Part shown: piece after piece, positions 6,776 through 62,572 of the stretch
Numbering within the stretch: the first letter of the stretch is position 1
Layout: each line of letters starts with the position of its first letter
Assembly (NCBI RefSeq): GCF_007828955.1
Contig: NZ_VIVR01000001.1
Coordinates: 1,364,001 to 1,428,000, forward strand
From: Kitasatospora atroaurantiaca
GTDB taxonomy: Bacteria; Actinomycetota; Actinomycetes; Streptomycetales; Streptomycetaceae
Reading direction: 5' to 3'
DNA length: 64,000 bases
Position numbers and translations under genes: made by a program
Notes under the pieces: model-generated
What the model was told of the DNA's origin: nothing
What the model saw: the letters and a program-made list of their open reading frames with translations, nothing else
Database searches by the model: none

Positions 6776-6805
6776 GGGTCGGGGGATCGGTGAGGAGGCT
6801 GCTCA

Positions 6806-7042
6806 ATGACCCGAGGGCGGCGCTACGCGCTGACATTTCCCGGCTCTCCCGGTGCGCACGCACCGCAGGACGTGGTGGTCGTGGAGGCCACCGGAGCCAG
6901 CGGTCCGGGCGGTCACCCTGTGTATGCGGACGCCTCCGGCATCGTGGTCGCCGAGATCAGCGACCTCGGCGAGGTCCGGATGCTGGCCAGCGGCGGGCAC
7001 CAGTCACCCCAGACACCGGTCCACGCCGAGCCGCTGCCCTGA
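6806..7042 (+). CDS. Small DUF6296-like protein
   Basis: A 78-residue soluble protein without signal peptide or membrane segment. Its sequence (RYALTFPGSPG near the start, GPGGHPVYADASGIVVAEI in the middle) fits what I recall of DUF6296, a small family seen almost only in Kitasatospora and Streptomyces and often present in many copies; its function is not known. The ATG start has GAGGAGG nine bases upstream. It stands alone, convergent with the dehydrogenase gene whose stop is 12 bp away. Family assignment rests on recognition only. Confidence 0.72.
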   Translation: MTRGRRYALTFPGSPGAHAPQDVVVVEATGASGPGGHPVYADASGIVVAEISDLGEVRMLASGGHQSPQTPVHAEPLP

Positions 7043-7054
7043 ACCGCCGCACTG

Positions 7055-8140
7055 TCACAGCAGCACCACCGAGCGGAGTACGTCGCCGTGCTGCATGCGC
7101 GCGAACGCCTCCTCCACACCGTCCAGCCGGATGGTCTCGCTGACGAACGCCCCGAGGTCGAGACGGCCCTGCAGGTAGAGGTCGATCAGCATCGGGAAGT
7201 CCCGTGAGGGCAGGCAGTCCCCGTACCAGGAGGACTTGAGGGCGCCGCCGCGGCCGAAGACGTCGAGCAGCGGGATCTCCAGCGTCATCTCCGGCGTGGG
7301 CACCCCGACCAGCACCACCGTCCCCGCCAGGTCGCGGGCGTAGAAGGCCTGCCGGTACGTCTCCGGCCGCCCCACCGCCTCGATCACCACGTCGGCGCCG
7401 TGGCCGCCGGTGAGTTCGCGGATCGCCTCGACCGGGTCGGTGGTACGGGAGTTGACGGTGTGGGTGGCGCCCAGACGGCGGGCGGTGTCGAGTTTGCGGT
7501 CGTCGATGTCCACCGCGATGATCCGGGCCGCACCCGCCAGCCGCGAGCCCGTCACCGCCGCCCCGCCGACCCCGCCGCAGCCGATCACCGCGACCGAGTC
7601 ACCCCTGCCGACCCCGCCGGTGTTCATCGCCGCGCCCAGCCCGGCCATCACCCCGCAACCCAGCAGCCCGGCGACCTCCGGCGCGGCCGCCGGGTCGACC
7701 TTGGTGCACTGCCCCGCCGCGACCAGGGTCTTCTCCGCGAACGCGCCGATGCCCAGCGCCGGGGACAGCTCGGTGCCGTCGAGCAGGGTCATCCGCTGCT
7801 TCGCGTTGTGGGTGTCGAAGCAGTACTGCGGCCGGCCGCGCCGACAGGCCCGGCACTGCCCGCACACCGCACGCCAGTTGAGAATGACGAAATCCCCCGG
7901 CGCGATCTCGGTGACCCCGGCGCCGACGGTCTCGACGATCCCGGCCGCCTCGTGGCCGAGCAGGAACGGGAACTCGTCGTTGATACCGCCCTCGCGGTAG
8001 TGCAGGTCGGTGTGGCACACCCCGCAGGCCTGTACGCGGACCACCGCCTCGCCCGGGCCCGGGTCCGGCACGACGATCGTCGTGAGCTCCACGGGTGCGC
8101 CCTTGGCGGCCGCCACGACTGCCCTGACCTGCTGCGACAT
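7055..8140 (-). CDS. S-(hydroxymethyl)mycothiol dehydrogenase
   Basis: A 361-residue zinc-dependent medium-chain dehydrogenase. Visible features are the catalytic-zinc motif CGVCHTD near residue 40, GHEAAGIVE near 64, the structural-zinc cysteine cluster [15 protein letters not shown], and the NAD-binding [10 protein letters not shown] near residue 190. Length and sequence fit the mycothiol-dependent formaldehyde dehydrogenase of actinomycetes, which oxidises the formaldehyde-mycothiol adduct to S-formylmycothiol with NAD+. An MBL-fold partner hydrolase is common next to this gene in other actinomycetes but is absent here. The ATG at 8140 is preceded by a purine-rich GAGAGGAT. The gene is transcribed alone or from the 110-bp gap behind the HPP remnant. 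Confidence 0.87.
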
Positions 8141-59595: not shown

Positions 59596-60378
59596 ATGAG
59601 CACCGCCGCCCCCGAGCGCATGCCCGCCCTCTACCTCTCCCACGGGGCCCCGCCGCTGGCCGACGACCCGATCTGGCCCGGCGAGCTGGCCGCCTGGTCC
59701 GCCGACCTGCCCAGGCCCAAGGCGATCCTGATGGTCTCCGCGCACTGGGAGGAGGCGCCGCTCGCCCTGGGCGCCACCACGACGGTGCCACTGGTCTACG
59801 ACTTCTGGGGCTTCCCGGAGCACTACTACCGGGTCCGGTACGCCGCGCCGGGCGCACCCGAGCTCGCCGAGAGCGTGCGCAAGCTGCTGCGCGCTCCCGG
59901 CACCCCGGTGCAGGACATCCCGGACCGGGGCCTGGACCACGGCGCGTACGTGCCGCTGGTCGAGATGTTCCCGGGCGCCGACATCCCGGTGCTGCAGGTG
60001 TCGATGCCCACCCTCGACCCGCAGCGGCTGATGGAGATCGGCCGCAAGCTGGCTCCGCTGCGCGACGAGGGCGTACTGATCGTCGGCAGCGGCTTCTTCA
60101 CCCACAACCTGCGGGCACTCAGTATGGACGGCCGGGTGACCCCCGTGATGGCCGAGTTCGACGACTGGGGCCGCCGCGCGCTGGCCGCCCAGGACCTCGA
60201 CGCGCTGCTCGACTTCGAACGCAAGGCGCCGGCGGGCAGGTTGGCCCACCCGCGGACCGAGCACTTCGCGCCGCTCTTCGTCGCCCTCGGCGCGGGAGAG
60301 GCCGACCTCGCCACCCAGCGCAGCGTGATCGACGGCTTCTGGATGGGCCTCGCCAAGCGCTCGATCCAGCTCGGCTGA
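59596..60378 (+). CDS. DODA-type extradiol ring-cleavage dioxygenase
   Basis: A 260-residue class III (LigB-like) dioxygenase. Metal-site histidines are seen in LSHGAPPLA (near residue 17), VSAHWEEAP (near 48) and RGLDHGAYVPL (near 115); a fourth His lies in EHFAPLF. Such enzymes open catechol rings between or beside hydroxyls. Its operator pair and the divergent MarR make it a probable catechol- or quinone-inducible detoxification enzyme. ATG 59596 with GAGGA upstream. Confidence 0.9.
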   Translation: MSTAAPERMPALYLSHGAPPLADDPIWPGELAAWSADLPRPKAILMVSAHWEEAPLALGATTTVPLVYDFWGFPEHYYRVRYAAPGAPELAESVRKLLRAPGTPVQDIPDRGLDHGAYVPLVEMFPGADIPVLQVSMPTLDPQRLMEIGRKLAPLRDEGVLIVGSGFFTHNLRALSMDGRVTPVMAEFDDWGRRALAAQDLDALLDFERKAPAGRLAHPRTEHFAPLFVALGAGEADLATQRSVIDGFWMGLAKRSIQLG

Positions 60379-60431: not shown

Positions 60432-60460
60432 GGCCGGGCGCCCCGCAGGGGCACCCGGCC
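60432..60460. terminator. Terminator between dioxygenase and repeat-protein genes
   Basis: GGCCGGGCGCCCC and GGGGCACCCGGCC form a 13-bp stem with a single C.A mismatch and a GCA loop, between convergent genes. Confidence 0.75.
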
Positions 60461-60472
60461 GTTGAGCCAGGC

Positions 60473-60787
60473 TCAGCAGTCGTCGTCCTTGTCCTTGTCG
60501 TCGTGGCTGGTGGCGTCGCCGCCGACCGCGAGCGCGGAGCCGCCCCAGGCGGTCGCGTCACCGCCCACGGCGAGCGCGTCGCCGTCCCACGCCGTCGCGT
60601 CACCGCCGACCGCGAGCGCGGAACCGTCGTCGTGGCTCACGGCGTCGCCGCCCACGGCGAGGGCACCCTGCGGGTGGTGCTTCTTGGGACAGTGATGGGC
60701 GTAGGCCGAGGCCGTTCCGCTGCCGGCGAGGAGCGCGAAGGCGGTGAGAGCCGTCGCGGCGGTGATCTTGGCGATGGTGGTGCGCAT
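60473..60787 (-). CDS. Small secreted protein with four ALAVGGDA repeats
   Basis: A 104-residue precursor. A signal peptide (residues 1-28, cleavage after TASA) is followed by a His/Cys/Lys-rich head (AYAHHCPKKHHPQ). Four near-identical 14- to 15-residue repeats follow, each opening ALAVGGDA (residues 42, 57, 71, 85) and alternating SHDD and AWDG/AWGG fillers. The end is Asp-rich (DDKDKDDDC) with a terminal Cys. The two cysteines could pair or anchor the chain. I recognise no family. Regular Gly/Ala/Asp spacing suggests a repeat fold or metal-binding surface peptide (inference). ATG with TGGAGG upstream. Confidence 0.72.
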   Translation of the reverse strand: MRTTIAKITAATALTAFALLAGSGTASAYAHHCPKKHHPQGALAVGGDAVSHDDGSALAVGGDATAWDGDALAVGGDATAWGGSALAVGGDATSHDDKDKDDDC

Positions 60788-60985
60788 CAATCCTCCAGGT
60801 TGGTACGGGACGGATGAATGATCGGCATCGCGCGGCAGGGCTATGACCACTCCCCGGCCTGAATCACCCGCCCGGACCAGGTCTTGTGCCTCGATGGCCC
60901 AGCCCTCGCCGCCGGACGCCGCGGCCCTTCGGGAGGGCATCGCGACCACTGCCGGAAAAAGGCCCCGCGCGCGACCATTCGGGTA

Positions 60986-61039: not shown

Positions 61040-62572
61040 ATGCAGACTCCACTCACCGTGATGGACTTCCTCGACCGGGCCGAGCTGGTCTACGGCGACC
61101 GGGTCGGACTGGTCGACGAGCCGGTGCAACCGGCCGACTCCTGGGGCGAGGTGACGTACCGTCGGATGGCTCAGCTCGCCCGTGCGCAGGCCGCCGGGCT
61201 GGACCGGCTCGGCGTCGGACCGGGCGAGCGGGTCGCCGTCGTCTCGCACAACTCGGCCCGGCTGATGACCTCGCTGTACGGGGTCAGCGGCCACAGCCGG
61301 GTCCTGGTACCGGTCAACTTCCGCCTGAAGGCCGAGGAAGTGGCGTACATCGTCGAGCAGAGCGGAGCATCCGTGCTGCTGGTCGACCCTGAACTGGACG
61401 AGGCGCTGGCCGGTGTGCCGGTCAAGCACCGCTTCGTGCTCGGCGCCGAGAGCGACGCGCAGCTGTACGACTTCGACCGCGAGCCCGTCCGGCACCGGAT
61501 CTCCGAGTCGGACACCGCGACCATCAACTACACCAGCGGAACCACCGCCCGCCCCAAGGGTGTTCAGCTGACGCACCGCAACATCTGGCTCAACGCCGTG
61601 CTGATGGGCCTGCACTTCGGGGCCGGGGACCGGGACGTGTACCTGCACACGCTGCCGATGTTCCACGCCAACGGCTGGGGCCTGCCCTTCGTGCTGACCG
61701 GGCTCGGCGCGCAGCACGTGGTGCTGCGCAAGGTGGACGGCGCGGAGATCCTCCGCCGGGTCGAGCGGCACGGGGTGACCTTCCTGTGCGGCGCGCCCGC
61801 CGTCGCCACCGCCGTCCTGGACGCCGCCGCCGACTGGGACGGCCCGGTCCCCGGGCGGGACCGGGTGCGGATCATCGTGGCCGGTGCGCCCCCGCCGACC
61901 TCGGTGGTGCAGCGCATCGAGAGCGAGCTGGGCTGGGAGTTCATGCAGATCTACGGCCTGACCGAGACCTCCCCCGTGGTGACGGTCAACCGCGGCCGCG
62001 CCGAGTGGGATGCCCTCCCGCCGGCCGAGCGCGCCGAACGGCTGGTGCAGGCCGGCTCACCGGCGCTCGGCAGCCAGGTGCGGGTGGACGGGCAGGGCGA
62101 GGTCCTGGTCCGCTCCAACACGGTGCTGGAGGGCTACTGGAAGCAGCCGGACGAGACCGCCGCCGCGCTCAAGGGCGGCTGGTTCCACACCGGTGACGGC
62201 GGCACCCTCACCGACGGCTACCTGGCCATCTCCGACCGCAAGAAGGACGTCATCATCACCGGCGGGGAGAACGTCTCCTCGATCGAGGTGGAGGACTGCC
62301 TGTACGGCCACCCGGCCGTCGCCGAGGTCGCGGTGATCGGGGTACCCGACCGCAAGTGGGGCGAGACGGTCAAGGCCCTGGTGGTGCTCAAGGACGGGCA
62401 GAGTGCCGACGAGGCCGCACTGATCGCCCACTGCAAGCAGCGGCTGGCCGGCTACAAGGCGCCCACCTCGGTGGAGTTCCGGGACAGCCTGCCGCGGACC
62501 ACCACCGGCAAGCTGCAGAAGTTCCGGCTGCGGGAGCCCTACTGGGCGGGGCGCGCCCGCGAGGTCAACTGA
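61040..62572 (+). CDS. Fatty-acid/acyl-CoA ligase (AMP-forming)
   Basis: A 510-residue adenylate-forming ligase that activates a carboxylic acid with ATP and CoA. The P-loop-like motif is NYTSGTTARPKGV near residue 160, YGLTETSP near 310 completes the AMP site, and the late lysine is in PRTTTGKLQKFRLR. Chain-length preference cannot be told. ATG 61040 with a weak GTGGGCGG upstream; the open frame further up is unlike the family. The palindrome at 60986 is probably its operator; its 3' end overlaps the convergent luxR-type gene by 8 bp. Confidence 0.9.
   Translation: MQTPLTVMDFLDRAELVYGDRVGLVDEPVQPADSWGEVTYRRMAQLARAQAAGLDRLGVGPGERVAVVSHNSARLMTSLYGVSGHSRVLVPVNFRLKAEEVAYIVEQSGASVLLVDPELDEALAGVPVKHRFVLGAESDAQLYDFDREPVRHRISESDTATINYTSGTTARPKGVQLTHRNIWLNAVLMGLHFGAGDRDVYLHTLPMFHANGWGLPFVLTGLGAQHVVLRKVDGAEILRRVERHGVTFLCGAPAVATAVLDAAADWDGPVPGRDRVRIIVAGAPPPTSVVQRIESELGWEFMQIYGLTETSPVVTVNRGRAEWDALPPAERAERLVQAGSPALGSQVRVDGQGEVLVRSNTVLEGYWKQPDETAAALKGGWFHTGDGGTLTDGYLAISDRKKDVIITGGENVSSIEVEDCLYGHPAVAEVAVIGVPDRKWGETVKALVVLKDGQSADEAALIAHCKQRLAGYKAPTSVEFRDSLPRTTTGKLQKFRLREPYWAGRAREVN

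Follow-up and report, generated by a model that had tools for sequence, protein, structure and literature searches.

A genus-restricted family of predicted secreted beta-solenoids in Kitasatospora with a conserved BldM-WhiI-type site upstream: candidate developmental surface proteins

Aerial hyphae and spores of streptomycetes are coated by chaplins, rodlins, and SapB-type peptides. The chaplins (ChpA-H, PF03777) and rodlins (NF041022) are small, Sec-secreted proteins under developmental control, and the protein family described here appears to resemble them in all three respects. However, chaplin and rodlin promoters are reported to be BldN-dependent (PMC4255298), whereas the present family carries a site for the BldM-WhiI heterodimer. 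Moreover, chaplins contain the amyloid-forming chaplin domain, whereas a beta-solenoid is predicted for the family, which, unlike chaplins and rodlins, appears confined to some Kitasatospora. In S. venezuelae, the BldM-WhiI heterodimer drives late sporulation (Group II) genes, and its footprinted site is the 16-bp, non-palindromic TGnnCCGnnCGGGTGA (PMC4125116). The S. venezuelae Group II targets whiE, smeA-sffA, and murA2 have the same 16-bp promoter site as the family (PMC4125116), although the regulation of the family is predicted from sequence and its gene was not found in the searched Streptomycetaceae outside Kitasatospora. Because the BldM-WhiI regulon also includes non-surface genes, such as whiE and smeA-sffA (PMC4125116), the site gives timing rather than function. 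BldM and WhiI are both widespread in developmentally complex actinomycetes (PMC4255298).

The gene lies in a 64,000-nucleotide stretch of the Kitasatospora atroaurantiaca genome, here called the window; the features of the gene are listed in Table 1. Translation of 60473-60787 (-) gives MRTTIAKITAATALTAFALLAGSGTASAYAHHCPKKHHPQGALAVGGDAVSHDDGSALAVGGDATAWDGDALAVGGDATAWGGSALAVGGDATSHDDKDKDDDC* (104 residues), and the predicted cleavage after ASA (residue 28) would release a 76-residue mature chain, in which ALAVGGDA starts at residues 42, 57, 71, and 85. An earlier note on this DNA had described a mature chain of about 76 residues with four such repeats spaced 15, 14, and 14 residues apart, and both the translation and the spacing count reproduced this description. 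The signal peptide was called by reading the sequence and the family alignment, with no dedicated predictor, and it is on this reading that export via the Sec pathway is predicted. In most relatives, the mature N-terminal segment ends in HPHG. The GC contents at the three codon positions of the open reading frame (0.71/0.59/0.92) are as for a gene in this frame and, together with the GGAGG element and the downstream hairpin, would fit a single-gene transcript. Its coding status is also supported by the dN/dS values of 0.05-0.55 obtained in 10 of the 13 compared homologue pairs; the other three pairs gave 0.94, 1.0, and 2.0, which counts against the preferred reading given below. We regard the open reading frame as a confirmed gene.

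Table 1. Features of the repeat-protein gene and its immediate surroundings (positions in the window)
Feature	Positions	Strand	Basis
CDS, 104-aa secreted repeat protein (predicted export), including stop codon	60473..60787	-	Translation, homologues, repeat and codon statistics, dN/dS
Predicted signal peptide, residues 1-28 (MRTTIAK..., hydrophobic core, ASA)	60704..60787	-	Sequence and family alignment; conserved family-wide
His/Cys-rich mature N-terminus YAHHCPKKHHPQG, residues 29-41	60665..60703	-	Alignment and composition table
Four coils of 14/15 residues (residues 42-98), each ALAVGGDAxxxxx, with two short strands predicted in each	60494..60664	-	Model and repeat analysis
Acidic Cys-ended tail DDKDKDDDC, residues 96-104, overlapping the end of coil 4; predicted disordered	60476..60502	-	pLDDT 44 in last block
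Ribosome-binding site GGAGG, 4 nt before ATG	60792..60796	-	Sequence
13-bp GC-rich hairpin between convergent genes, probable terminator	60432..60460	-	z -3.9
TGGTCCGGGCGGGTGA, matching the BldM-WhiI (Group II) consensus TGnnCCGnnCGGGTGA exactly	60864..60879	-	76 nt upstream of ATG, in the gene's orientation
LigB-type dioxygenase gene, convergent	59596-60378	+	
AMP-forming acyl-CoA ligase gene, divergent	61040-62572		

The periodicity of the mature chain is far above chance, the lag-14 self-identity being 27, whereas 20,000 shuffles never gave more than 20, whatever the lag. Across 150 coils taken family-wide, Ala/Ser predominate at positions 4, 6, 11, and 13, position 5 is Leu in 53% and Gly in 23%, position 7 is Val/Ile in 95%, and positions 12 and 14 are variable. 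The first turn of the coil is Gly8-Gly9-Asp10, position 10 being Asp in 91% of cases, and each half-coil has a length of 7 residues (GGDALAV / GGDAxAx).

A protein search of 100 genomes gave matches in 28, nearly all in the same genus, and a search with a longer family member gave matches in 30 of 70 Kitasatospora genomes. Among 395 Streptomycetaceae genomes, a profile built from 24 members matched 32, of which 31 were Kitasatospora. Relatives with conserved repeats thus occur in about 31 of 70 Kitasatospora species, with a single copy per genome, and no true members were found in about 325 other Streptomycetaceae genomes, the one match outside the genus (G356, L152) being an artefact (a shadow frame of DNA repeats). 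When 296 genomes sampled phylum-wide were searched, there were two matches besides the query, both spurious. Other candidates rejected as homologues were the weak in-genus match G054 (L030) and L153-L155 (spurious frames), L113 (a shadow frame of DNA repeats), L112 (a coiled-coil-like repeat protein on reading), and L031 (a peptidase-like ORF). Overall, the family seems to be confined to some Kitasatospora, and because approximately 56% of the species of the genus are without the gene, it must be dispensable for sporulation. Signal peptide and repeats are kept in the members, while coil number differs between species (2 to 8), a variation more in keeping with a structural than with a catalytic role. 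Neither Pfam nor NCBIfam gave a family over its cut-off for the window protein or the relatives tested; matches to PAAR, choice-of-anchor A, pAdhesive_15, BimA, and Ata were all far under the cut-offs, and nothing relevant was found in the literature on Kitasatospora with YadA or on GGDA. The family is without a Pfam or NCBIfam name and was previously unrecognised, and the earlier description of an unrecognised secreted peptide holds.

The BldM-WhiI site upstream of the gene is a rare sequence. The 7.87-Mb genome contains 14 exact sites, versus 2 for a reversed control pattern, so that about 0.03% of starts would be expected to have an exact site, on the proper strand, within 300 bp. Sites with at most one mismatch number 227 genome-wide, corresponding to about 0.4% per 300-bp promoter, and were present in 1.7% of random 300-bp stretches drawn from the same regions, family promoters included. 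Among the distinct family members, 17 of 28 have an exact site and 26 of 28 have a site with at most one mismatch, located at 75-112 nt; the sites of L020 and L028 have three mismatches each, L028 retaining the CGGGTGA half alone. On the basis of these promoter sequences, the family gene is likely to be regulated by BldM-WhiI. Scanning the promoter region for sigma-70 elements gave no match. In some orthologues, a WhiG-like TcAT-N16-GCCGAT was seen by eye downstream of the BldM site.

The composition of the chain ends would accord with an extracellular metal-binding protein, with Cu, Zn, or Ni bound by the His-rich head (together, in some few proteins, with an Asp/His/Cys tail), the solenoid serving as a spacer, and a role in metal capture or supply during development. 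In most members, the segment directly following the signal peptide does contain 3-9 His (HTHHHGHHHTHPHG, HAHHHHHQDAHPHG, YAHHCPKKHH), and three have Asp- or His/Asp-rich, Cys-containing C-terminal tails. However, the head contains 0-2 His in L018, L020, L021, L025, L026, L027, L029, L055, and L062, where the repeats are still conserved; genes for metal transport or metal regulators are not among the conserved neighbours; and the conserved promoter element is a developmental one. Since a His-rich head is common but not universal (several members have 0-2 His there) and 3 of 28 members have the Asp/Cys tail, metal binding cannot be the core function of the family. We therefore consider a metal-handling role unlikely, although the His-rich head, where present, may bind metal.

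The fold was modelled using AlphaFold2 with family alignments that were shallow (13-24 rows), and the models were monomeric. The pLDDT values were 86-94 for the repeats of the window protein and 92-98 for the coils of a longer relative, and each 14-residue coil was modelled with two short alternating strands, one per half-repeat. Judging from these models, the repeats very likely form a beta-solenoid with two strands per coil, in agreement with the short solenoid that had been suggested from the sequence. The alternation of residues suggests a narrow solenoid in which Ala fills the core and the two faces differ, one bearing a hydrophobic ladder and the other being variable. A structure search with VIA did not identify a fold relative with confidence (highest Z 6.7 and 4.0), and YadA heads were absent among the matches listed by either VIA or Foldseek.

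The repeats may nevertheless be read as being of the YadA-head type (LPBR, PF05658), given that the published motif GxNSVAIGAxSxAx (PMC9543794) has the same 14-residue period, with small residues at positions 4, 6, 11, and 13, hydrophobic residues at positions 5 and 7, and glycine at position 8. When the repeat profile was searched against the PDB, the YadA head 1p9h ranked first (E 0.022), and PF05658 gave scores of 9.8 bits for the window protein and 19.7 bits for the best relative tested (L026), both under the cut-off of 25 bits. However, when every sequence was reversed as a control, which keeps period and composition, the reversed alignment matched the BpaC head 7o23 better (E 1.7e-6). 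The resemblance therefore reflects periodicity and composition, homology is not shown, and YadA-head homology was dropped as a claim of membership. In addition, the conserved glycines are at positions 8-9 and 2, not 8 and 1, the family having a G-G-D turn; the canonical motif has no strict match in the window protein; and Foldseek gave no confident PDB match (best E 0.9 and 0.065). Unlike YadA-like heads, the family has a Gram-positive host and neither a trimeric autotransporter membrane anchor nor a coiled-coil stalk, the window protein ending after the repeats and showing no such domain in Pfam/NCBIfam. Altogether, a YadA-head reading of the repeats seems improbable. The grass ice-recrystallisation-inhibition beta-roll (LbR_Ice_bind PF21300, 3ult) also has two short strands per 14-15-residue coil, and matches to it were sub-threshold in relatives (best 17.6 bits versus a cut-off of 30; E 0.084 for 3ult in the PDB), PF21300 not being listed for the window protein; in contrast to this roll, the family lacks the NxVxG motif and the Thr/Ser ice-binding ladder.

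A roll of the RTX type, stabilised by Ca2+ bound between coils at the stacked GGD turns, would make use of the Asp ladder that the near-invariant G-G-D turn provides at position 10, and RTX beta-rolls were among the weak structural neighbours. However, their structural scores were low (Z 3.1 for the window model and 5.4 for the longer model), and the nonapeptide GGxGxDxUx and the 18-residue coil are absent, the half-coil here being 7 residues, all of which makes a calcium-stabilised roll quite improbable.

Across the relatives, the family gene is found in at least two different neighbourhoods. The first, shared by the window and L066, L074, L080, and L081, comprises genes for a MarR regulator, a LigB-type dioxygenase, and an acyl-CoA ligase. 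In the second, a SpoIIE/PAS/GAF phosphatase gene adjoins the family gene in 14 regions, often with genes for an aldehyde dehydrogenase, a glutamine-synthetase-like protein, and a short-chain dehydrogenase; in L072 (2723-5821), this neighbour encodes a 1,032-aa SpoIIE/PAS/GAF/HATPase phosphatase, and it occupies the equivalent place in the 13 other regions. Although adjacency in the first setting might suggest that the gene is part of an aromatic-catabolism locus, this is extremely improbable, since the gene is convergent with the dioxygenase gene and divergent from the ligase gene, and the 14 other regions have the phosphatase neighbour instead with the same promoter site. The dioxygenase neighbourhood was thus ruled out as a functional clue by the second setting, and the gene is, as the earlier note had it, near the dioxygenase operon but outside it. 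CGGGTGA, the core of TGnnCCGnnCGGGTGA, is the most conserved block of the aligned upstream regions and is near-invariant in both main settings; because it is conserved although the neighbourhoods differ, the site travels with the gene, and because the site stays while the neighbours change, it is the operator, and not the neighbours, that is informative on function. About 38 nt downstream of CGGGTGA, a stretch CCGAT(c/g)AT...CGTCC is also conserved with the same spacing in both settings (window 60781-60880 (-) and orthologues), possibly as a promoter or 5' UTR element.

This genome also encodes the known exoskeleton proteins. It contains eight chaplin matches, genuine chaplins scoring 84-101 bits (PF03777), and an adjacent rodlin-like gene pair lies beside a chaplin cluster (L156:6315-6659 and 6782-7126, near C1 3,221,000). 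One protein of this pair was tested and matched NF041022 with an E of 3.7e-9 and 36.7 bits versus a cut-off of 75, and Kitasatospora rodlins may accordingly be divergent. The window protein itself showed no match to PF03777 at E up to 10 and none to NF041022. Given the presence of chaplin and rodlin-like genes, the family is additional to the known exoskeleton proteins rather than a replacement for them. Two further developmental-type sites were observed in this genome. A two-domain chaplin gene (L157, C1 about 6,527,900) has TCACTCGATCGGGTGA 101 nt upstream, which differs from the BldM Group I palindrome at one position, and a 55-aa secreted ORF (MTTVRKALTARNGLLLAAAVCGLMFGTAGSAAATCSALDVVGGLAPGFGNSCVSR; L158:1471-1638(+), C1 about 1,613,970-1,614,137) has an exact BldM-WhiI site 70 nt upstream; the C-terminus of the latter resembles the end of a chaplin domain, and Pfam gives no match.

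Taken as a whole, our preferred reading, to which we give a probability of roughly 0.55, is that of a late-developmental, Kitasatospora-specific, BldM-WhiI-switched, secreted solenoid that assembles at the cell surface, where the fold and secretion are predicted and the regulation, location, and assembly are argued indirectly. According to this reading, the BldM-WhiI heterodimer would occupy its site 76 nt upstream of the start and would switch the gene on late in development, in sporulating aerial hyphae. The product would be exported by the Sec pathway with loss of its signal peptide, and its 14-residue repeats would stack up as a short and narrow beta-solenoid whose core is packed with Ala; positions 5 and 7 would form a Leu/Val ladder along one face, and positions 12 and 14 would make up a variable one. 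Assembly would most likely take place at the aerial hypha or spore surface, alongside chaplins and rodlins, via the hydrophobic ladder and/or the solenoid ends. The window protein is without a membrane or wall anchor, and self-association is plausible. The product would then be a developmentally timed extracellular surface protein of aerial hyphae or spores, a biochemical role that we infer. The conserved BldM-WhiI site, which the earlier note does not mention, lends strong though indirect support to the surface peptide proposed there by comparison with other secreted streptomycete proteins, the surface location itself being something that we infer.

A more specific version can be put forward tentatively, in which this genus-specific, non-chaplin, non-rodlin beta-solenoid, switched by BldM-WhiI, polymerises into a fibrous layer on Kitasatospora spores, either end to end, via uncapped coils or Cys-bearing ends, or sideways, via the Leu/Val face, with the properties of the layer tuned by coil number. 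L006, L028, and the window protein each have a Cys near the mature N-terminus and another at or next to the last residue, after the acidic tail. Such paired Cys could allow end-to-end disulfide linkage in these three proteins.

If the preferred reading is true, the family would represent a further kind of developmental surface protein, one that is lineage-restricted, has a different predicted fold, and has its own BldM-WhiI operator, and it would offer a simple system for coil-number variation in beta-solenoids. The conserved site renders the regulation of the family gene directly testable.
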